A model generated the notes under the pieces. That model did no database searches. It was not told where the DNA came from and worked only from the letters and a program-made list of their open reading frames with translations. The translations under genes were made by a program, and so were the position numbers. From positions 1 to 64,000 of the forward strand of contig CANRJR010000001.1 in NCBI GenBank assembly GCA_947631005.1: 64,000 nucleotides of DNA, given 5' to 3'. This DNA comes from an uncultured Clostridia bacterium. Lineage in GTDB: Bacteria; Bacillota; Clostridia; Christensenellales; Borkfalkiaceae. Numbering within the stretch: position 1 is the first letter of the stretch; each line of letters opens with the position of its first letter. Of the stretch, positions 35,808-51,448 are shown one piece after another.

Positions 35808-37442
35808 TCAATAGACCGTGGGAACGCCGTCAACATAATGCCAATAGTTGCCCTCTGATTGCGGTTGTTCCTCGCTGAAAAAGTAAACATTTTCCGCGCT
35901 CACTTCATTGTCCTCATCAACGACTACATCTTCCCATTGTTCCTTTGTCCCCGCGTAATAGATCTTCGTCTCCATCGTGAGCATCGCTCTGATCGCACCA
36001 AATCCGATTTTTTTCACCGTAACGGGCACAACAAGCCTTATGATTAACGAATGAAAAAATGTCCGATCCGCGATTTCGGTCAATCCATCGGGCATAATGA
36101 CTTCTTCAAGCGACTGACAATTCGAAAATGCACTATATCCAATCGTCCTGACGCCATCGGGAATTTGGATCTGAAGCAGCTTGTAGCAATTGCTGAACGT
36201 GCTATCCGGAATCTCCGTCAGATCGGACGGAAGTCTTACTCTCTCCAAATTCTCACAATGCGAAAAAATAGATCCACCGATCAATTTCACACCGTCGGGA
36301 AGCGTGATCCCAACCAAATTTCTTTGATCGGAAAACGCCATAGATGCAATATATTTGATGTCGGACGGAAAATCGTCAATCACCGTTCCCGCCTCCATTT
36401 CGCCCTTATATTGATAGAGCACGTTGCCGAGTGTGACATAACCGTCCGATTGGGCATTCAGCCAGGCTGTATCTCGAAAGACATATCCCCCCATCTCTTC
36501 GAGCGCGTTGGGCATTTTGATCTTCCTCAACTGCCAACACCCATCAAACGCAAAATCCTCGATCCGTTTCACCGAATTGGGGATAGAGATCTCCGCAAAA
36601 TTTTGCGAGTGCACGATATCCGTAGATGCAGGGAAGCTGTAAGCAAATGCCGACGCCTCGATTTCTTCCAGCCCGTCGGGCAAAGAGAGCTCCGAAAGAG
36701 AGCAATCTTCAAAACAACGTTTTGAAATGACTTTCAAATTTTTGGAAAACGTGACGCGAGCCAGGTTTCTGCAACTGTAAAATGCCGACGCCCCAAGCTT
36801 CGTAACCGAATCGGGAATCTTGATCGCTGTAAGATTGTTTGTATAAGCAAAGGCGTACGAGCCGATCTCCTCGAGCGTTTCGGGAAGTATGATCGACGTC
36901 GTCTCGGTGTTGCAGTGTTCCCCCGTTTGTCGATTGGGCATTTCGTTTCCGACATGCCATATGAACCCCATGTTCGCTATCTTTTTGACGGGCAACCACT
37001 TAAAATAAGCGGGAATTTTGATCCTGTTCTCAAAAGTGGTCCTGCCCATAGAAACTTCGTAACCCTTTCCATCCTCCATTAAGGTGTATTCAAATCCGTC
37101 TTTGTCGAACCCATGCTCGACAGGTTGGTCAACAGTGAATGAAAACGACGCTTTTTCGGAATCCGCATAGGTGCGCCCGTCCCCTCTCGCAAATACCTCT
37201 ATTTGATGCTCGCCGTATCCTACCTCCTCGGGAACAACAACGCTCGGCGTATCCGTCTCTTGCTCCCCCTCTCCGAATGAAACTGTGTACCCCGACGCGC
37301 CCTCCACCTCGCTCCACGATATCGTTCTCCCGTTTACCTGAAAACCGGTCGGAGCGGATAATTTTTTCCCTGCGCACGCCGTTATCCCAAAGCACAGCGT
37401 CAGAGCAAACAAAGCACTCAACCAACATATCGCTTTTTTCAT
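35808..37442 (-). CDS. BspA-like leucine-rich-repeat lipoprotein
   Basis: The 544-residue protein begins with a lipoprotein signal (FGITACAGK, lipidated cysteine near residue 23), then a fibronectin-III-like domain (APTGFQVNGRTISWSEVEGASGYTVSF) and a long run of type-5 leucine-rich repeats about 23 residues each (for example IPDSVTKLGASAFYSCRNLARVTF). BspA-like proteins in gut bacteria act in adhesion or binding of host or plant polymers. The region is less GC-rich than its neighbours and is surrounded by dispersed repeats, which suggests acquired DNA. An AGGAGGG site precedes the ATG. Confidence 0.92.
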   Translation of the reverse strand: MKKAICWLSALFALTLCFGITACAGKKLSAPTGFQVNGRTISWSEVEGASGYTVSFGEGEQETDTPSVVVPEEVGYGEHQIEVFARGDGRTYADSEKASFSFTVDQPVEHGFDKDGFEYTLMEDGKGYEVSMGRTTFENRIKIPAYFKWLPVKKIANMGFIWHVGNEMPNRQTGEHCNTETTSIILPETLEEIGSYAFAYTNNLTAIKIPDSVTKLGASAFYSCRNLARVTFSKNLKVISKRCFEDCSLSELSLPDGLEEIEASAFAYSFPASTDIVHSQNFAEISIPNSVKRIEDFAFDGCWQLRKIKMPNALEEMGGYVFRDTAWLNAQSDGYVTLGNVLYQYKGEMEAGTVIDDFPSDIKYIASMAFSDQRNLVGITLPDGVKLIGGSIFSHCENLERVRLPSDLTEIPDSTFSNCYKLLQIQIPDGVRTIGYSAFSNCQSLEEVIMPDGLTEIADRTFFHSLIIRLVVPVTVKKIGFGAIRAMLTMETKIYYAGTKEQWEDVVVDEDNEVSAENVYFFSEEQPQSEGNYWHYVDGVPTVY

Positions 37443-38699: not shown

Positions 38700-38773
38700 G
38701 GCGTAATTATATCCCTATTCTCTTGCCAAACGCTACGCCCTATGCTATAATTAGGGCGTAATTATGCCCCTAT
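38700..38773. promoter_or_regulatory. Divergent promoter and operator region of the XRE pair
   Basis: For the plus-strand gene, TTGCCA (38723-38728) and TATAAT (38746-38751) are 17 bp apart. The -10 box is exactly bracketed by the inverted repeat TACGCCCTA (38734-38742) and TAGGGCGTA (38752-38760). A 19-bp motif GGCGTAATTATNNCCCTAT occurs at 38700-38718 and again at 38755-38773; the first copy overlaps a minus-strand TATAAT (38706-38711) suited to the XRE gene. Confidence 0.8.
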
Positions 38774-38788
38774 CGCAGGAGAAACGCC

Positions 38789-39559
38789 ATGAGCAACGAA
38801 AAAATGACGGCAGAAGAACGAAAGGCACTTATAAGGATTTTGAAGGCATTTTTTGCTATGGATGCAAGCGCGCTGTTCAATGCCTACGCGATCGAAAGTG
38901 TCGCTTTCGGCGATTTGAAGCCGCGGGATGAAATCCCGTTTGATAAGTTCATAGAGGACTTGGGGCTGACCGCTTGGCAAGTTTACAGCGTTCGCAACTG
39001 TATCGGAGGCGTAGCCATTGCGGAAAACGAAACGATCGCGGACAAGGATATCGGCTTCTTTGAGAAAGAGTGTTTTATCTTCCACATGAACGACGTCTTT
39101 GATACTGCGCCTTATAGCAAGCGAAAAGACGATGATGAAAACGGTCTGCGCCCGTTTAACAAGGAGGGGCTGAACGGTTATATCATGCGTCTGTTTCCAC
39201 TCTTTCATAAGATTCTTGCGACCGAAACGGAACATGATTTTTTTGAAATCGCCTCGCCATTTTTAGACCGCGCCGCGCAAACGGCGTGCTATGAAAAAAT
39301 CGCCAAATTTTTGGTGGCGATCATAACGCGGGGATTGCGGCAAGGCAGCTGTGTTGACCGCTACTTGAAAGGCTTGCCGTATTTGCCGTACTATGTGAAA
39401 CGGCTCTTAAAAGTAAAAAACGGTCACTTCCTGCTTGCGAACAGCGACGCGGAGAACCTTGATTTTCGGCTTGCCGTCCTTTCCGCAATCCACTTCATGA
39501 ACGCGGAACACACCCAGCTCTTTGAACTCAAAGCGCGGAAATGGGCGGGAGACAAATAA
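38789..39559 (+). CDS. Protein of unknown function, partner of XRE regulator
   Basis: This 256-residue soluble protein shows no motif I recognise. It appears mainly helical, with aromatic-rich segments (FFEKECFIFHMNDVFD, YLKGLPYLPYYVKRLL) and a C-terminal AEHTQLFELKARKW. An AGGAG site precedes ATG 38789. It is transcribed from a promoter whose -10 box lies within the putative XRE operator. The arrangement (small HTH repressor, divergent larger unknown gene) resembles mobile-element or stress-response modules, but no function can be assigned. Confidence 0.75.
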   Translation: MSNEKMTAEERKALIRILKAFFAMDASALFNAYAIESVAFGDLKPRDEIPFDKFIEDLGLTAWQVYSVRNCIGGVAIAENETIADKDIGFFEKECFIFHMNDVFDTAPYSKRKDDDENGLRPFNKEGLNGYIMRLFPLFHKILATETEHDFFEIASPFLDRAAQTACYEKIAKFLVAIITRGLRQGSCVDRYLKGLPYLPYYVKRLLKVKNGHFLLANSDAENLDFRLAVLSAIHFMNAEHTQLFELKARKWAGDK

Positions 39560-41070: not shown

Positions 41071-41147
41071 CGAGGAGTAGCGCAGTTTGGTAGCGCGCTT
41101 GGTTCGGGACCAAGAGGTCGTGGGTTCAAATCCCGTCTCCTCGACCA
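41071..41147 (+). tRNA. tRNA-Pro (CGG)
   Basis: Acceptor CGAGGAG/CTCCTCG, D arm GCGC...GCGC with TTTGGTA, anticodon stem CTTGG/CCAAG with loop TTCGGGA (anticodon CGG), T arm GTGGG/CCCGT with loop TTCAAAT, discriminator A and encoded CCA. It reads the proline codon CCG. Confidence 0.96.
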
Positions 41148-41460
41148 TGAAAAACCGCCTAATGTATTTGGCGGTTTTTATTTGCCGAGGTCGTGGTTCT
41201 GCCGTCTCCTCGACCATGCCGTTCTATCTGATTTAGGTAGAACGGTTTTTATTTGCCGAGGTCGTGGTTCTGCCGTCTCCCCGACCATGAAAAGACCGCC
41301 TGTTATGTCGGGCGGTTTTTATTTGCCGAGGTCGTGGTTCTGCCGTCTCCCCGACCATGCCGTTCTATCTGATTTAGGTAGAACGGTTTTTATTTGCCGA
41401 GGTCGTGGTTCTGCCGTCTCCCCGACCATGCCGCACGGATTTTTGAACGGACGGCTTTTT
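41148..41460 (+). repeat. Tandem array of degenerate tRNA-Pro 3' ends with terminators
   Basis: After the tRNA's own hairpin terminator come four direct copies of a tRNA 3' end (GCCGAGGTCGTGGTTCTGCC...) at 41184-41218, 41255-41289, 41325-41359 and 41396-41430, with periods of 71, 70 and 71 bp. Each has the same deletion collapsing the T loop but keeps the acceptor strand and CCA. Each copy is followed by a hairpin; those after copies 1 and 3 are identical (CCGTTCTATCTGATTTAGGTAGAACGG), those after the tRNA and copy 2 are similar CCGCC/GGCGG stems, and each ends TTTTTATTTG. A weaker hairpin ends the array at 41431-41460. Confidence 0.92.
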
Positions 41461-41627: not shown

Positions 41628-41704
41628 TGAGGTGTAGCGCAGTTTGGTAGCGCGCTTGGTTAGGGACCAAGAGGTCGCGTGTTCAAGTCACGTCACCTCA
41701 ACCA
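41628..41704 (+). tRNA. tRNA-Pro (AGG)
   Basis: Acceptor TGAGGTG/CACCTCA, D arm as in the CGG tRNA, anticodon stem CTTGG/CCAAG with loop TTAGGGA (anticodon AGG), T arm GCGTG/CACGT with loop TTCAAGT, discriminator A, encoded CCA. An A34 anticodon for proline is uncommon in bacteria; it would read CCU, and CCC only if deaminated to inosine. Confidence 0.94.
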
Positions 41705-41757: not shown

Positions 41758-41957
41758 CTCGCGACCTCTTGGTCTATTTTGATAGGACTCCCATAAAAAG
41801 GCGAAGCATTTTTACGGGAAAAGGAGACATCGCCCGCAAAAGGAGCTTTTCGCAAGAAAAGCGTGAAAAGCGGGCTACGGCGACGCGGTCGCGTGTTCAA
41901 GTCTCCCCCTCAACCACGAAGAGCCTAATTGAACGCGTAAGTGTTTGATTGAGGCTC
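41758..41957 (+). repeat. tRNA-Pro(AGG)-associated element
   Basis: An inverted copy of the tRNA anticodon-to-T-stem region (CTCGCGACCTCTTGGTC, 41758-41774) is followed by a core (41784-41884) related to that beside tRNA-Thr: CTCCC, then AAAAAGGCGAAGCATTTTTACGGGAAAAGGAG split over a hairpin, then GCTTTTCGCAAGAAAAGCGT. A direct degenerate tRNA 3' end including CCA (41885-41917) and a second terminator (AAGAGCCT...AGGCTCTT, to 41957) complete the element. Confidence 0.85.
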
Positions 41958-42037: not shown

Positions 42038-42066
42038 TTGAAATAATTCCCCTTTTTTGATATACT
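42038..42066 (+). promoter_or_regulatory. Promoter of the TIR-LRR gene
   Basis: TTGAAA (42038-42043) and TATACT (42061-42066) are 17 bp apart, 20 bp before ATG 42086. Confidence 0.85.
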
Positions 42067-42085
42067 TGATTTCGGGGAGGCGTCC

Positions 42086-43534
42086 ATGAAAGAGCTTACC
42101 GTAGAAGAAAAAATTGCGGCGATCAAAAATACCGCAGGCTATCAAGACGTGAAAAACGCTTGGTTTCCGCCTTATCATGAAAAAAAGTATTATTTTGTAA
42201 GCTATTCGCACAAGGACTATAAATTGGTCTACGAAAGTTTGCACAGACTGCAAAACGGCGAAACGCAGCTCAATTTATGGTACGACCACAGTCTTGTCCC
42301 GGGCAGGGATTGGGAAATCGAAGCCCGCCGTTATATCGGCGACTTCAAATGCAAGGGCGTCATCTTTTTTTTGAGCGAAAATGCGGTGCTTTCGCAGTCC
42401 ATCCATAAAGAGATTGAATTCGTAAAAAACTGCGGGAAATCGTATCTTTCGATCAATCTACCTTGCGAAACGATCGAGGGGCATATCGGCGAATATTTAT
42501 CCGCCGCGCAAATGCTCAAATTATTAAAGCGACAAGGGCGGGAAATTGAAAATTACGACGAAAAAATGGCTGTTTTAAGGGAGACATTTAACGATAAGAT
42601 AACTTTCCTGCCGTTCAATGAAGATATCGACTCGCAGATCGAGAAAATTCTCTCCTTATGGCGCGAGCCTTTATTGGCGTTCCGTTCCGACGTCGCGGTT
42701 TCCGTAAACGATCTTCAAGTGGAAGTTGTGAAAGCGAATGAATTCGAATATTTGAATGAAGATTGGGAATCCGTCGTTGCCGACGAACTCGGTGACTGTG
42801 CATTCGCGAATTGCCGATGGCTGAAAGAAATCGAGCTGCCCGAGCATATCGCACGGATGGGCAATTATGTATTTTGCAATTGCACAAGCCTTGAAAACAT
42901 CGTCATCCCCGAAAAAGTACATTATATCGCCCGCGGAGTGTTTTCGGGTTGCACAAGTCTGAAAAGCGTAACCTTATCCGAAAAAACAACTACGATCGAC
43001 GCCGCGGCGTTTGAGAATTGCAGCAGTCTGAAAAGCATCACCATGCCAAACAGTGTAACTTCGCTGCGCGAATGGGCGTTCCGCGGTTGCAAAAGGCTGG
43101 AACACATCACTCTGTCCGAGAATATCCCTACGATCGCTATGGACGCGTTCTCTTTTTGCCGCAGTCTGAAAGACATTGTGCTACCCGATCGTTTGACCAA
43201 AATCGAGTCGGGCGCGTTCTTTCGTTGCGAAAGCCTTGAAACCGTATCGATCCCCGACGGCGTAACTTCGATCGGCGGAATCGTGTTCTACGGTTGCACA
43301 CGCCTGAAAAGCATAACGATACCTGCGAGCGTCACGTCGATCGGGAAGAAAACGTTCGGACTTTGCAACAGTTTGAAAGACATTTTTTATCGAGGGACAA
43401 AACAGCAATGGAGAGCCCTCGGCACGAACCTGCTGTGGGACGTCATTGCGCATGACGCTCGGGAGAACGTTATTCACGATTGCACGATCCATTGCGCAGA
43501 CGGGGATTGGAAGAAAGACGAGTTGACCGAATAG
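42086..43534 (+). CDS. TIR domain fused to BspA-type leucine-rich repeats
   Basis: The 482-residue protein carries a TIR domain at residues about 33-175: YYFVSYSHKDYKLVYESL, the LWYDHSLVPGRDW loop, GVIFFLSENAVLSQSIHKEIEF with the candidate catalytic glutamate E109. Residues about 230-460 form eight or more LRR_5 repeats (FANCRWLKEIELPEHIARMG, and similar). No signal peptide is present, so it is cytoplasmic. Bacterial TIR domains often cleave NAD to kill or arrest infected cells, and an LRR could act as sensor. It is AT-rich relative to the chromosome and lies directly before a restriction-modification pair, which supports a defence role. That function is inference. Confidence 0.9.
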   Translation: MKELTVEEKIAAIKNTAGYQDVKNAWFPPYHEKKYYFVSYSHKDYKLVYESLHRLQNGETQLNLWYDHSLVPGRDWEIEARRYIGDFKCKGVIFFLSENAVLSQSIHKEIEFVKNCGKSYLSINLPCETIEGHIGEYLSAAQMLKLLKRQGREIENYDEKMAVLRETFNDKITFLPFNEDIDSQIEKILSLWREPLLAFRSDVAVSVNDLQVEVVKANEFEYLNEDWESVVADELGDCAFANCRWLKEIELPEHIARMGNYVFCNCTSLENIVIPEKVHYIARGVFSGCTSLKSVTLSEKTTTIDAAAFENCSSLKSITMPNSVTSLREWAFRGCKRLEHITLSENIPTIAMDAFSFCRSLKDIVLPDRLTKIESGAFFRCESLETVSIPDGVTSIGGIVFYGCTRLKSITIPASVTSIGKKTFGLCNSLKDIFYRGTKQQWRALGTNLLWDVIAHDARENVIHDCTIHCADGDWKKDELTE

Positions 43535-43585
43535 GTGCGTTTATTCCCCCCGAAAAAGATAATTTTTCTTATCGGGTTTTGTCTC

Positions 43586-43614
43586 TTGATTATTTTACAA
43601 TTTTGTGATATAAT
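43586..43614 (+). promoter_or_regulatory. Promoter of the HaeIII-type R-M operon
   Basis: TTGATT (43586-43591) and TATAAT (43609-43614) are 17 bp apart. The predicted start (about 43621) lies after the ORF-track start codon, so translation must begin at 43642. Confidence 0.85.
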
Positions 43615-43641
43615 GTGGCTACAAAAGAGAAAAGGAAATCT

Positions 43642-44646
43642 ATGCAAGTCATAAGTCTATTTAGCGGGTGCGGAGGTCTTGATTTAGGATTTGAACGTGC
43701 TGGATTTGAGATTCCGATTGCCAATGAGTACGACGCTTCCATTTGGGATACTTATTGCCTCAACCACCCATGCACCGATTTAATTAAAAGTGATATCCGC
43801 GTGCTTGACGAGAATATGTTCCCGCGCAACGTGGACGGCATGATAGGCGGTCCTCCTTGTCAGTCATGGTCGGAGGCTGGTTCGTTGCGCGGCATAAACG
43901 ATGCGCGCGGAAGATTATTTTACGAATATATTCGAATTTTAAGAACAATTCGACCTAAATTTTTTCTCGCGGAAAATGTAAGCGGCATGCTTGCACAACG
44001 TCATTCGAGTGCGGTTCAACAAATTATTAACACTTTTCAGAGTTGCGGCTATAACGTAACCCTCTCCTTGGTCAATGCGAAAAATTATGGCGTAGCGCAA
44101 GAACGTCGTCGCGTTTTTTATATTGGTTTTCGTGAGGATCTTAATATACAATTCGCATTTCCGCAAGGCTCTACACAAAACGACGATCTGAAATTGACAT
44201 TGCGAGATGTAATCTGGGACTTACAAGACACGGCCGTCCCCGCAGGACCGCGCAACTATCATAATCCCGACGCGATCAATAACAATGAGTATTTTACAGG
44301 TACATTCTCCCCCATTTTTATGAGCCGCAATCGTGTGAAATCTTGGGACGAGCAAGCGTTTACGGTACAGGCGTCGGGACGACAATGTCAACTTCACCCG
44401 CAAGCCCCGAAAATGGTGTTAATTTCACAAAACAAGCGAGAGTTTGTCAAAGGGCAAGAACACTTATACCGAAGAATGACGATTCGTGAAATTGCAAGAA
44501 TCCAAGGTTTCCCCGATTCCTTCCGATTCCTTTATGAGAATACGGATGACGCCTATAAAATGATAGGGAATGCCGTTCCCGTGAATCTTGCATATGAAGT
44601 TGCAATCGCAATAAAAAATGTTTTATGTACATTGGGAGTAAAGTAA
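43642..44646 (+). CDS. C5-cytosine DNA methyltransferase, HaeIII-like (GGCC)
   Basis: The 334-residue enzyme has all C5-methyltransferase motifs in order: [13 protein letters not shown] (I), [16 protein letters not shown] with catalytic C73 (IV), AENVSG (VI), [11 protein letters not shown] (VIII), and [13 protein letters not shown] (X). From memory it is very close to M.HaeIII along its length, including [25 protein letters not shown] in the target-recognition area. It should methylate the inner cytosine of GGCC. ATG 43642 follows AAAGGAAA. It lies 2 bp before the cognate nuclease gene. Confidence 0.95.
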
Positions 44647-44648
44647 AA

Positions 44649-45602
44649 ATGAGCGAACAGAGCAACAATTTGGGACGCGCTTATGAATATATTTGTTTGA
44701 TAACTTTGTCGGAAGAAATCAAACGTTTCCGAGACGTTGATATAGAACAAAACAGCGCATATCACGCTGCGCGTCGCGCTTGGTCTACAATAAGCATAGC
44801 TTCGCAAGAAATTTTGCGGGGTAGCGCAAAAGCCACTGTTGCAACGGTGTTTGACATGGAGCCCACGATCATAGATCAAAATGGCGATGTGCTTTTACTT
44901 CAAATCCAACCAGACCAAAAAGGAAAAGATGGGGATGTCCGCGATATTGTCATTACCCGTAAAGATCTTGAATGGGAAATCGGATTAAGCATTAAGCACA
45001 ATCATTTTGCAGTAAAACACAACCGCCTCGCAAAAAATCTCGATTTTGGTGCAAAGTGGTATGCAATACCATGTTCGAAAAGTTATTGGGAAAGCGTCAC
45101 GCCGATTTTTCAACGTTTGGAGCAAGAACAACAGCTTGCGCATGTTTGGCGTGATTTGAAAGATAAAGATACGAATGTCTATATCCCGTTACTCAATGCC
45201 TTCATGAAAGAAGTCAAAAATAGCAATGCGATTGATCCCGCCGTCCCGAAAAAAATGGTCGAATATCTCCTCGGCGAGTTCGACTTTTACAAAATTATAA
45301 GTATAGATTCAAAGCGGCTTACGCAAATCCAAACCTATAATATGCACGGACAACTCAATCATTCGACGCACAAAATAGCACCTAAAATCTTCGTTCCGCT
45401 CGCGGCTCTTCCGACAAGGATCGTTTCGATGGAGTTTAAGCCGAATAGCACAACTACCGTAGAACTCTATATGGATGGCGGTTGGCAATTCAGTTTTCGG
45501 ATTCACAATGCGTCAACGATAGTTGAGCCGAGTTTGAAATTTGATATTCAAATGATTGGAATGCCAACAGCGATTATTTCCATTGATTGTAAATGGAATT
45601 AA
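44649..45602 (+). CDS. HaeIII-family type II restriction endonuclease
   Basis: The 317-residue protein matches the HaeIII nuclease family in size and in its N-terminal GRAYEYICLITLSEEI, the GDVRDIVITR strand and the EIGLSIKHNHFAVKHNRL segment, which would supply the acidic and lysine residues of the PD-(D/E)xK-type centre. It should cut unmethylated GGCC. It follows the methyltransferase by 2 bp, and its Shine-Dalgarno lies in the end of that gene. The ORF-track start at 44625 is upstream of the preferred ATG. Base composition is AT-rich like its partner, consistent with transfer. Confidence 0.92.
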   Translation: MSEQSNNLGRAYEYICLITLSEEIKRFRDVDIEQNSAYHAARRAWSTISIASQEILRGSAKATVATVFDMEPTIIDQNGDVLLLQIQPDQKGKDGDVRDIVITRKDLEWEIGLSIKHNHFAVKHNRLAKNLDFGAKWYAIPCSKSYWESVTPIFQRLEQEQQLAHVWRDLKDKDTNVYIPLLNAFMKEVKNSNAIDPAVPKKMVEYLLGEFDFYKIISIDSKRLTQIQTYNMHGQLNHSTHKIAPKIFVPLAALPTRIVSMEFKPNSTTTVELYMDGGWQFSFRIHNASTIVEPSLKFDIQMIGMPTAIISIDCKWN

Positions 45603-45753: not shown

Positions 45754-46638
45754 CTACTTTGCTTGAAGAAAAGCGCGGAGGCGGGATAAAAAGAGCTCGG
45801 CGCATTTCGGGAACACCTGATGTTTTTTCCATGCGATGTCGAGGTGCGAGGTGAGGGCGGGATAGAGCGGCTTGAAACAGAGCGCGCTGTCGCCCGCGGT
45901 ATTGATGATGTGTTCGAGCCCGACGGCGTAGCCGACCCCCTCTTCCACGAGAAGAGACGCGTTGTACAACAAGTCGTATGTGGCGACGATATTCAGCTCT
46001 TCCTGCCGCCTATGAAACCACTCGCCGATCGGGCTCTTCCCGAGCGAATGGCGGGAACGGATGAGCGGGACGCGCCAAAGATCTTCGGGGCAAATGTGCT
46101 CCTTTTCCGCGAGCGGGCTGTCTTTCCGCATGAGGACGCCCCATGTATCGACGAGCGGCAGGCGCAAATATTCGTAATCTCCGAGGTCGGACGGCTCGAT
46201 GAAGATGCCGAAGTCAATGAGCCCCTTGTCGAGCTTTTCGGCGATCGAACGCATATCCCCGCTGTACAAATGAAATTTGACGTCGGGGTGGTCGTGCTGC
46301 ATGTCGCGCGCCGCCCCCGCGATGAGCTTCAACGCATAGCTCTCCCCGCCGCCGATGCGGATGTCGCCGCTCACCCTGCCCGCAGGCGTTTTCAGTTCGC
46401 CCTCCGCCTGACGGTAGAGTTCCAAGATCTCCTCGGCGCGCTGGTACAACAGCCGCCCCGCTTCGGTGAGCGCGATCTTCCTGCTCCCCCGCTCGAACAG
46501 CCTCTGCCCGAGCTCCTCTTCGAGCTGTTGCATCTGGCGGGACAGGCTCGGCTGGGACAAAAACAAACTGTTCGCCGCGCGCGAAATGCTCTGTTCCCGC
46601 GCGACCGCGACGAAATATCGCAAGACCCGTATCTCCAT
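45754..46638 (-). CDS. LysR-family transcriptional regulator
   Basis: The 294-residue protein begins with the LysR winged HTH (RVLRYFVAVAREQSISRAANSLFLSQPSLSRQMQQLEEELGQRLFERG) and continues with a substrate-binding domain. ATG 46638 follows GGAGG; the ORF track adds nine codons. It is divergent from the acetyltransferase-alcohol dehydrogenase-flavodoxin genes and is their likely regulator, as LysR proteins usually control a divergent neighbour. The inducer is unknown. Confidence 0.94.
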   Translation of the reverse strand: MEIRVLRYFVAVAREQSISRAANSLFLSQPSLSRQMQQLEEELGQRLFERGSRKIALTEAGRLLYQRAEEILELYRQAEGELKTPAGRVSGDIRIGGGESYALKLIAGAARDMQHDHPDVKFHLYSGDMRSIAEKLDKGLIDFGIFIEPSDLGDYEYLRLPLVDTWGVLMRKDSPLAEKEHICPEDLWRVPLIRSRHSLGKSPIGEWFHRRQEELNIVATYDLLYNASLLVEEGVGYAVGLEHIINTAGDSALCFKPLYPALTSHLDIAWKKHQVFPKCAELFLSRLRAFLQAK

Positions 46639-46711
46639 CCTTTTCCTCCGCGGACAGCATACCACGGTTTTCCATGCTTGTCAAGCATATCATTCTATAA
46701 AATATAGGTAT

Positions 46712-50167: not shown

Positions 50168-51448
50168 ATGTCGGAAAAGAAAGATATCTTTATATCCTAT
50201 TCCAATGTCGACCGCGACGGGGTGGAACAGATCGTAAATACCATCAAGTACTACGGCGTTTCGTGTTGGTTTCAGTTGCGGGACAGCAAACAGCATTACA
50301 TCGAGGAGATCAATCAGGCGATCAACAACTCGCGCGACTTCGTCATCTTCTTGTCGAACGCAAGCGTCTCCTCGCTCATGGTGCGCAACGAAATCTCCCG
50401 CGCCATCTTCCAGCAGAAAAAGGACGCCTCGTACGACATCGTTCCCGTCGTCATCGGCGACCTTTCCGAAGAAAATCTCGAGATCATCAACCTCTATCTC
50501 GGCAGTCTGAATTGGCTCTACGCCGATAAATACGCCGACCCCGAAAGCCTCGCGCTCGCCATCTTCGAACAGGCGGGCATCGAGCCCGTGCGGACGGAAG
50601 AGCATACCCAGAGTGCCTATTCCACCGAAAAAGAGGCGGAAAAGATCCGTCTCAAAGAGCAAAACAAATATTTCAACGTCTATGCCGAAAAGTATCTCGA
50701 CGAGGTGTTTTTGAAATACGACGACCCCGCGGTGCTCGACGTGGGTTGCGACACGGGCGACAACATCCTGTTGCGCTTGCAGGGGCGCAAATACCGCTTC
50801 CTCGTGGGCGTCGACCGCAACCCCGCCGCCGTAGAAGAAGCCGCCGCCTCCGCGCCCGAAAACGCCGCGTTCCTCTGTTGCGACGTGACTTCGGACGACT
50901 TCGTGCGCACCCTCTTCGGGCAGATGCAACGGCTTCGGATCATCGGCTTCGACGTCATCCATATCTCCGCCGTCCTCCTGCACCTCGCCAAGGTGGACGA
51001 GCTGTTGAAAAACCTGTATATGCTGCTCAACCCCGGCGGGACGATCTTCATCCAGGACGAGGACGACGGCGTGAATCTCGCCTATCCCAATTCCACCTAC
51101 TTCGACGATTGCTTTTACATATGGGAACATTCCAAGGAATCGGGCGACAGGAGCACGGGGCGCAAGCTCCCCTCCATGCTGCAAGAGGCGGGCTTCCGAA
51201 ACATCGCGCTGCATTCCTCGGCGATCTCCTCCGTCGACTTCGGCGGCAAATTCAAGGAGGAGCTGTGGGATCTTTACTTCAATCCCGAACTGTGGTCGGC
51301 GGACAGCGCGGCGTATTTCGACAACTACGAGGCGTTCGACCGCCTCGGCAAGGTACAGGCGCGGCACGCGCAAATGAAAGCCGATTACATGAGCGGAAAA
51401 TACTTCATCATGCTCGGCATTTTCTTCCTTACGGCGACCAAAGAATAG
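50168..51448 (+). CDS. TIR domain fused to a SAM-dependent methyltransferase
   Basis: The 426-residue protein has an N-terminal TIR domain (residues about 5-140): DIFISYSNVDRDGVEQIVNTI, SCWFQLRDSKQHYIEEINQAI, DFVIFLSNASVSSLMVRNEI with the candidate catalytic glutamate E75. A class I methyltransferase follows (residues about 180-420): motif I VLDVGCDTGDNILLRL, VDRNPAAVEEAA, and IHISAVLLHLAKVDELLKNLYMLLNPGGTIFIQDEDDG. It is cytoplasmic and monocistronic with its own consensus promoter and terminator. TIR domains commonly hydrolyse NAD. What the methyltransferase modifies is unknown. The GC content matches the chromosome, unlike the TIR-LRR gene. Confidence 0.93.
   Translation: MSEKKDIFISYSNVDRDGVEQIVNTIKYYGVSCWFQLRDSKQHYIEEINQAINNSRDFVIFLSNASVSSLMVRNEISRAIFQQKKDASYDIVPVVIGDLSEENLEIINLYLGSLNWLYADKYADPESLALAIFEQAGIEPVRTEEHTQSAYSTEKEAEKIRLKEQNKYFNVYAEKYLDEVFLKYDDPAVLDVGCDTGDNILLRLQGRKYRFLVGVDRNPAAVEEAAASAPENAAFLCCDVTSDDFVRTLFGQMQRLRIIGFDVIHISAVLLHLAKVDELLKNLYMLLNPGGTIFIQDEDDGVNLAYPNSTYFDDCFYIWEHSKESGDRSTGRKLPSMLQEAGFRNIALHSSAISSVDFGGKFKEELWDLYFNPELWSADSAAYFDNYEAFDRLGKVQARHAQMKADYMSGKYFIMLGIFFLTATKE

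Follow-up and report, generated by a model that had tools for sequence, protein, structure and literature searches.

Analysis of a 64,000-nucleotide stretch of DNA from an uncultured Clostridia bacterium (the window) revealed a gene for a single protein, here called TIR-LRR_5, in which a TIR domain precedes an array of LRR_5 repeats (Table 1). Both parts are predicted to adopt the corresponding folds, and the TIR glutamate E109 is invariant. Among relatives the TIR is nearly frozen while the LRR array varies, the gene is sporadically distributed, and a promoter-like site lies upstream of it. The protein resembles the immune receptors of plants and animals and may be their bacterial equivalent, with a putative role in defence.

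Table 1. Features of the TIR-LRR_5 gene and its surroundings, in window coordinates
Feature	Position	Strand	Evidence
Truncated copy of tRNA-Pro 3' end (possible scar of integration), 170 bp upstream of the TIR-LRR gene	41887..41915	+	GGTCGCGTGTTCAAGTC, 17/17 match to tRNA-Pro 41628-41704
Promoter-like TTGAAA-17-TATACT, extended TG before -10	42038..42066	+	Consensus scan, 10/12 matches; by itself no proof of function
Shine-Dalgarno-like GGGGAGG, just 5' of ATG	42077..42083	+	Direct reading of the sequence
TIR-LRR_5 protein, 482 aa	42086..43534	+	ORF with ATG start; Pfam TIR_2 and LRR_5; AlphaFold2 mean pLDDT 92.4; at least 36 homologous loci in gut Firmicutes
N-terminal helical extension, residues 1-33, family consensus EEKI..I..S......LP	42086..42184	+	Three family alignments; helix 6-14 in model
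TIR domain, residues about 34-190	42185..42655	+	TIR_2 match; model pLDDT 91.5; Foldseek; profile matches
E109 codon, candidate catalytic glutamate	42410..42412	+	Invariant in 49 TIR modules; aligns with conserved ThsB/Cat1 Glu
Nine LRR_5 (BspA-type) repeats, 23 residues each, residues 236-442	42791..43411	+	Pfam; repeat register; model; Foldseek
C-terminal cap, residues 443-482, kept in close relatives	43412..43531	+	Comparison of L041-L046 and L148 tails
Weak terminator-like hairpin, then TTTT, between TIR-LRR gene and R-M	43549..43576	+	MFE -9.6 kcal/mol, z -0.98
Promoter-like TTGATT-17-TATAAT of the R-M operon	43586..43614	+	Consensus scan, 10/12; outside the TIR-LRR unit
R-M pair: C5 cytosine methylase (43615-44646), HaeIII-type endonuclease (44625-45602)	43615..45602	+	PF00145, PF09556; context

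The Pfam profile TIR_2 matched residues 37-127 with 29.5 bits (cut-off 28), and LRR_5 (PF13306) covered the C-terminal half with 195 bits (E 3.9e-58), confirming the reading frame and the domains of the original prediction. Structure prediction, which had been proposed as a check, gave a TIR fold and a BspA-type solenoid in AlphaFold2 models built from family alignments, with pLDDT values of 91.5 for the TIR (225 aa) and 92.4 for the whole protein. Foldseek placed plant NLR TIRs (RPP1, RPS4, L6 and RUN1) at the top for the TIR model and also retrieved TLR2, SPARTA, SpbK and SARM1, the probability being 1.00 for many TIRs. The whole-protein model matched the BspA-type LRR structures 4gt6 and 4fs7. 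The TM-scores were moderate, about 0.5 of target, and therefore the fold class is secure and the sub-class is not. Sequence profiles matched the TIRs of ThsB, Cat1 and TLR6, with a ThsB as the best solved relative (9uv0, E 4e-4). The profile score above the cut-off and the modelled fold place the protein in the TIR domain superfamily. The predicted LRR part is a BspA-type LRR_5 solenoid of 23-residue units. Its repeats, claimed to number at least eight, proved to be nine, each exactly 23 residues long (starts at 236, 259, ... 420), and the parallel strands of the model showed the same spacing of 23 residues. Pfam gave no NTPase match (NB-ARC, NACHT or STAND) in the protein, in which residues 131-235 form the TIR-LRR junction.

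The strict conservation of E109 upheld its choice as the candidate catalytic residue. The residue was invariant in three alignments of 9, 28 and 49 related sequences, and in the profile alignment it coincided with the conserved Glu of the ThsB and Cat1 TIRs. S103, D67, W76, C89 and G91 were likewise unchanged across the 49 TIR modules, which came from gut Clostridia and Bacilli. This invariance makes catalysis by the TIR likely, not proven. The conserved Glu is present in more than 70% of all TIRs, and activity is not always associated with it (PMC7075850).

Inspection found no signal peptide or lipobox in the protein, and the N-terminus (MKELTVEEKIAAIKNT) had no hydrophobic segment, in agreement with the cytoplasmic location originally assigned to it. 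The LRR_5 protein at 35808-37442(-) in the same window is a lipoprotein, unlike TIR-LRR_5; the contrast drawn earlier between the two was thus supported by its N-terminal lipoprotein signal (..LCFGITACAGKK). The majority of LRR_5 proteins are located on the cell surface or secreted, and TIR effectors are known from pathogens. These facts, together with the surface/secreted type of the protein at 35808-37442(-), raise the idea that TIR-LRR_5 is exported against a host or a competing bacterium. We consider this very improbable, in view of the missing signal peptide and lipobox, the lack of any recognised secretion gene nearby, and the intracellular signalling-type cassettes in which relatives sit. 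The secreted BspA-like LRR_5 proteins (4gt6, 4fs7 and TpLRR 6mlx) share the repeat family and the solenoid, but they are extracellular or surface proteins without a TIR, whereas TIR-LRR_5 has neither a signal peptide nor a surface anchor.

The AT-rich character claimed for the gene was evident, with a GC content of about 44% in this stretch against about 60% around it, and the promoter of its own that had been proposed corresponds to the promoter-like site with the extended TG in Table 1. The downstream hairpin was graded weak because of its z value, and it was absent from the terminator scan output. Upstream of the TIR-LRR gene are two tRNA-Pro genes together with truncated copies of their 3' ends, an arrangement like that of an integration hotspot. 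Ten relatives share the adjacent LysR-acetyltransferase-ADH block and have neither the TIR-LRR gene nor the R-M pair. No integrase was seen. We also noted tandem units at 41139-41430, behind the tRNA-Pro gene at 41071-41147, each consisting of a degenerate 3' end of tRNA-Pro and, after it, a terminator-like hairpin. They look like serial integration scars. An ORF at 45820-46707(+) (295 aa) was tried as a synteny anchor and rejected as spurious, as its apparent homologues contained stops; the true gene, on the opposite strand at 45754-46665(-), encodes a LysR regulator.

The adjoining R-M pair was verified as a C5 methylase with a HaeIII-type endonuclease. Because it has a promoter-like site of its own, it and the TIR-LRR gene are probably separate transcription units. 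The remaining neighbours in the window are the tRNA-Pro genes, a metallophosphoesterase, the LysR regulator and metabolic genes. Homologues of either R-M gene occurred near none of the TIR relatives (0/53), and the genes surrounding the 36 TIR-LRR_5 homologues were mostly housekeeping ones (rpoA/rplQ, ruvABC, tig/clpP, def/fmt/rsmB, msrA). PADLOC families (E 1e-15) made up 18 of 131 TIR-LRR_5 neighbours, mostly in the L042/L043 cassette, as against 60 of 128 proteins from arbitrary regions. There was thus no PADLOC excess beside the 36 homologues, relative to a small and noisy control that happened to include R-M and Ssp genes. With R-M genes absent beside the homologues and no PADLOC excess, the proximity of the R-M pair is no argument for function, and the defence island originally proposed shrinks to this one pair. 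Non-defence contexts of the homologues had been named as evidence against the original reading. They are what the family at large shows, whereas the nearest relatives escape them with a conflict-type cassette.

TIR relatives were detected in 67 of the 396 genomes of the order. An alignment-based scan of named genomes collected 53 TIR loci, nearly all from gut Clostridia and Bacilli MAGs; LRR_5 repeats follow the TIR in most of them, and MORN repeats in one group. The closest kin of the window protein came from rabbit-gut Clostridia MAGs (L041-L043). Within the genus, a close TIR-LRR_5 was present in one of 103 genomes, namely the window genome, and the next best TIR was 39% identical. This moderately close TIR (G545:C20:17426-19218) belongs to a tandem of two TIR genes. 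Searches of plasmid and viral collections returned no TIR relatives; phage matches that had been listed as such were rejected since they matched the LRR half. Present in one of 103 genomes of the genus, the TIR-LRR_5 gene is accessory and sporadically distributed, and it is recently acquired.

Eight TIR-LRR_5 members formed one supported clade (L060, L066, L068, L069, L078, L081, L084 and L089), and in all eight a second TIR-LRR_5-like protein is encoded one or two ORFs downstream. In the second protein, box 1 (SYSHKD -> YYP..LY) and the catalytic Glu are both gone, the loss of the Glu in L089 depending on the alignment. As judged from these motifs, the pairs are catalytic/pseudo-catalytic tandems, and the loss of Glu and box 1 from the partner suggests a functional role for the Glu of the first protein.

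Distant TIR relatives are fused to nitroreductase and LRR_5, or to methyltransferase. Nitroreductase-TIR proteins of the same order were seen at L024, L026, L033 and L038, three of them with LRR_5 repeats. Such fusions would suit a protein outside biological conflict, in which the TIR would serve as a scaffold or regulator and the LRR would recognise a partner from the cell itself, as part of a stress or metabolic response. Homologues standing mostly single among housekeeping genes with no PADLOC excess also point this way, as does the caution that a conserved Glu is no proof of catalysis (PMC7075850). We nevertheless regard this role as improbable. It accords poorly with the sporadic distribution and horizontal transfer of the gene, with a frozen TIR that keeps its Glu strictly while the tandem partners lost Glu and box 1, and with the conflict-type cassettes of the nearest relatives.

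The two halves of the protein differed greatly in their variation. Compared with L041-L043, the three closest full-length relatives, the TIR core (residues 30-130) was 88-89% identical with dN of 0.055-0.060, and the LRR region was 46-51% identical with dN of 0.43-0.48. Because repeat numbers were unequal and no unambiguous alignment could be made, both dN and dS of the LRR region are inflated. Among L041, L042 and L043 themselves, the TIR cores were 97-99% identical and the LRR regions 53-56%. The repeat number ranged from 9 to 14 among relatives, with the first repeat (CAFANC) and the C-terminal cap conserved. Within the L042-L044 cassette, identities were 94-96% for the TIR (residues 1-130), 90-95% for the vWA protein, 83-85% for the kinase, 67-70% for the PP2C-like protein and 87% for the SLOG/DUF4231 protein, so that the TIR core was at least as conserved as the neighbouring genes. 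A near-frozen TIR with a variable LRR array fits what would be expected of a constant effector and a variable sensor, and the original assignment of LRR as sensor and TIR as effector is consistent with this pattern. The LRR variation was measured within TIR-LRR_5 proteins only. LRR_5 arrays in general may change repeat number fast, and misregistered repeats inflate the LRR values, both of which count against a sensor-specific explanation.

Of the four nearest relatives, three (L042, L043 and G323, the last being L044/L107/L148) encode TIR-LRR_5 immediately upstream of a SLOG-like/DUF4231 membrane protein. The gene order is vWA, kinase, PP2C-like, zincin-like (with HELGH in L042), TIR-LRR_5 and SLOG-like/DUF4231, and an AAA/M41 protein is common to the L043 and G323 cassettes. 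We take DUF4231 to be a SLATT domain; this identity and the labels SLOG and PP2C-like are putative and derive from motif reading. The fourth relative, L041, adjoins HD-RyR-SLOG-like and TrkA-RyR-like proteins and a TIR-methyltransferase. A SLOG/SLATT-like or RyR neighbour is present at L041-L043 and G323, and RyR occurs in the wider TIR family as well. RyR (PF02026) was found in 61 of the 396 genomes of the order, together with a TIR in 34 (odds ratio 11.5, p 1e-14). Across the 396 genomes, 16 TIR-RyR pairs lay within 10 kb as against 0.58 expected by chance; they came from 13 genomes of about 9 genera, uncorrected for shared ancestry. Co-location far above chance was noted at L041, L076, L083, L118-L147, L149, L150 and L151, where the RyR proteins are HD-RyR-SLOG-like and TrkA-RyR-like membrane proteins. 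Their TIR partners were diverse, including LRR_5, MORN, nitroreductase-TIR-LRR_5 and TIR-TM-LRR architectures. Phages are known to carry TIR and SLATT genes side by side, in some cases along with a gene for a zincin-like peptidase, and SLATT is predicted to respond to ADPr derivatives (PMC9503650).

The adjacency of the TIR to a putative SLOG/SLATT effector in the nearest relatives favours signalling over depletion. As in Thoeris, the product of the TIR would then be a messenger, a cyclic or linear form of ADP-ribose, by which a separate SLOG/SLATT or RyR-sensor effector is activated. This effector would be the adjacent SLOG/DUF4231 protein in the closest relatives and an unrecognised one acting in trans in the window genome. 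The vWA, kinase, PP2C-like and HELGH-zincin genes upstream, the recorded TIR-SLATT neighbourhood, the excess of TIR-RyR pairs, and a ThsB as the best solved match of the TIR are in keeping with such a role. We rate it a serious but unlikely alternative, because the window genome, in which PF14015 and PF02026 were tried, yielded no SLOG/DUF4231 or RyR protein. At a completeness of 99.9%, that genome gave no match to these two profiles, which represented the SLATT/SLOG/RyR families in the profile search, and none to the L042 SLOG/DUF4231 protein. The PF14015 search over the order gave one match, in G323, and a family-level search, on a sample without a positive control, did not find the SLOG/DUF4231 protein.

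As the search of the window genome turned up no partner of the DUF4231 (SLATT-like) or RyR type, TIR-LRR_5 probably acts alone there, and a stand-alone, LRR-triggered depletion of NAD+ is therefore favoured. SARM1 and plant TIRs with the conserved Glu deplete NAD+. A catalytic TIR with this Glu does the same in TIR-STING (PMC13142454). We propose that TIR-LRR_5 is a sensor-effector protein of the cytoplasm that was acquired horizontally. Its LRR_5 solenoid would bind a molecule that appears at times of conflict, a protein of a phage or mobile element being the most plausible candidate. This contact may bring the TIR domains together as oligomers, whereupon the TIR would degrade NAD+ through E109, and the loss of NAD+ would halt or kill the cell. 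We hold this explanation tentatively, at slightly less than an even chance; the location of the homologues mostly away from known defence genes speaks against it.

Comparison with known systems places the protein apart from each of them. It shares with Thoeris ThsB a bacterial TIR with the conserved Glu, and its nearest relatives adjoin a SLOG/DUF4231 protein. It differs in the large LRR_5 sensor fused to the TIR, and no ThsA or SLATT gene was recognised in the window genome. The PADLOC ThsB match was only E 0.0024. With no ThsA, and with tRNA-Pro and R-M as neighbours, TIR-LRR_5 is not a member of Thoeris, though it may work alike. Stand-alone NAD-depleting TIRs and TIR-STING likewise combine an effector TIR and a sensing module in a single polypeptide; the sensor here is an LRR_5 solenoid, not STING, and the NADase activity is putative. 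Plant TIR-NLRs (RPP1, RPS4, L6 and RUN1) and animal Toll also have a TIR with LRRs, the LRR variable and the TIR constant. TIR-LRR_5 has no NB-ARC/NACHT switch and no transmembrane segment, and its LRRs are of the bacterial BspA class. Without an NTPase it is not an NLR, though it may work alike, and the likeness in layout to plant TIR-NLRs and Toll is probably convergent.

Bacterial TIR-LRR proteins have been noted before in Chloroherpeton and Rhodopirellula (PMC7145615). These also carry TIR and LRR in one protein; they belong to other phyla, and their LRR class and function are undescribed in that paper (PMC7145615). This general mention (PMC7145615) was all that the open literature searched offered on the subject; TIR-LRR_5, the pattern of a constant TIR and a variable LRR, the tandem pairs with a pseudo-TIR and the link to RyR were not described in that literature. 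On a broader scale, gut Clostridia and Bacilli may possess a large family of NTPase-less NLR-like receptors, in which a near-invariant TIR is joined to an LRR_5 (or MORN) array reshuffled between conserved caps. One clade would always form a catalytic/pseudo-catalytic pair, and others would be linked with SLOG/SLATT or RyR-domain effectors responding to messengers derived from NAD. We consider this generalization possible, though more doubtful than probable. If it holds, bacteria own a direct TIR and LRR receptor with a constant effector and a changing recognition array, as in plant NLRs but without their NTPase switch. It would offer a simple single-gene system for studying how an LRR sensor switches on its TIR, and would supply numerous natural recognition arrays of the LRR_5 type. 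The TIR-RyR linkage further suggests that bacterial RyR-like domains may sense messengers of the ADP-ribose type.

Several additional genes were noted. A first clustering suggested a reverse transcriptase beside 12 TIR-LRR loci, a candidate that we rejected; only L055 has one, and the rest are mostly second TIR-LRR proteins. The L055 gene (9223-14484, minus strand) encodes a 1753-aa protein in which a reverse transcriptase (RVT_1) is joined to a very long LRR_5 array, and it converges on a TIR-LRR_5 gene. The window also contains, at 38762-39235(-), a 157-aa ORF without a family match, probably a gene, with a 47% relative in L096 near flavodoxin genes. A second TIR protein of the window, encoded at 50168-51448(+) where a flavodoxin/ADH operon ends, combines a TIR (TIR_2, 68 bits) with a methyltransferase, and the same architecture is found at L041:2231-3538, beside the RyR proteins.
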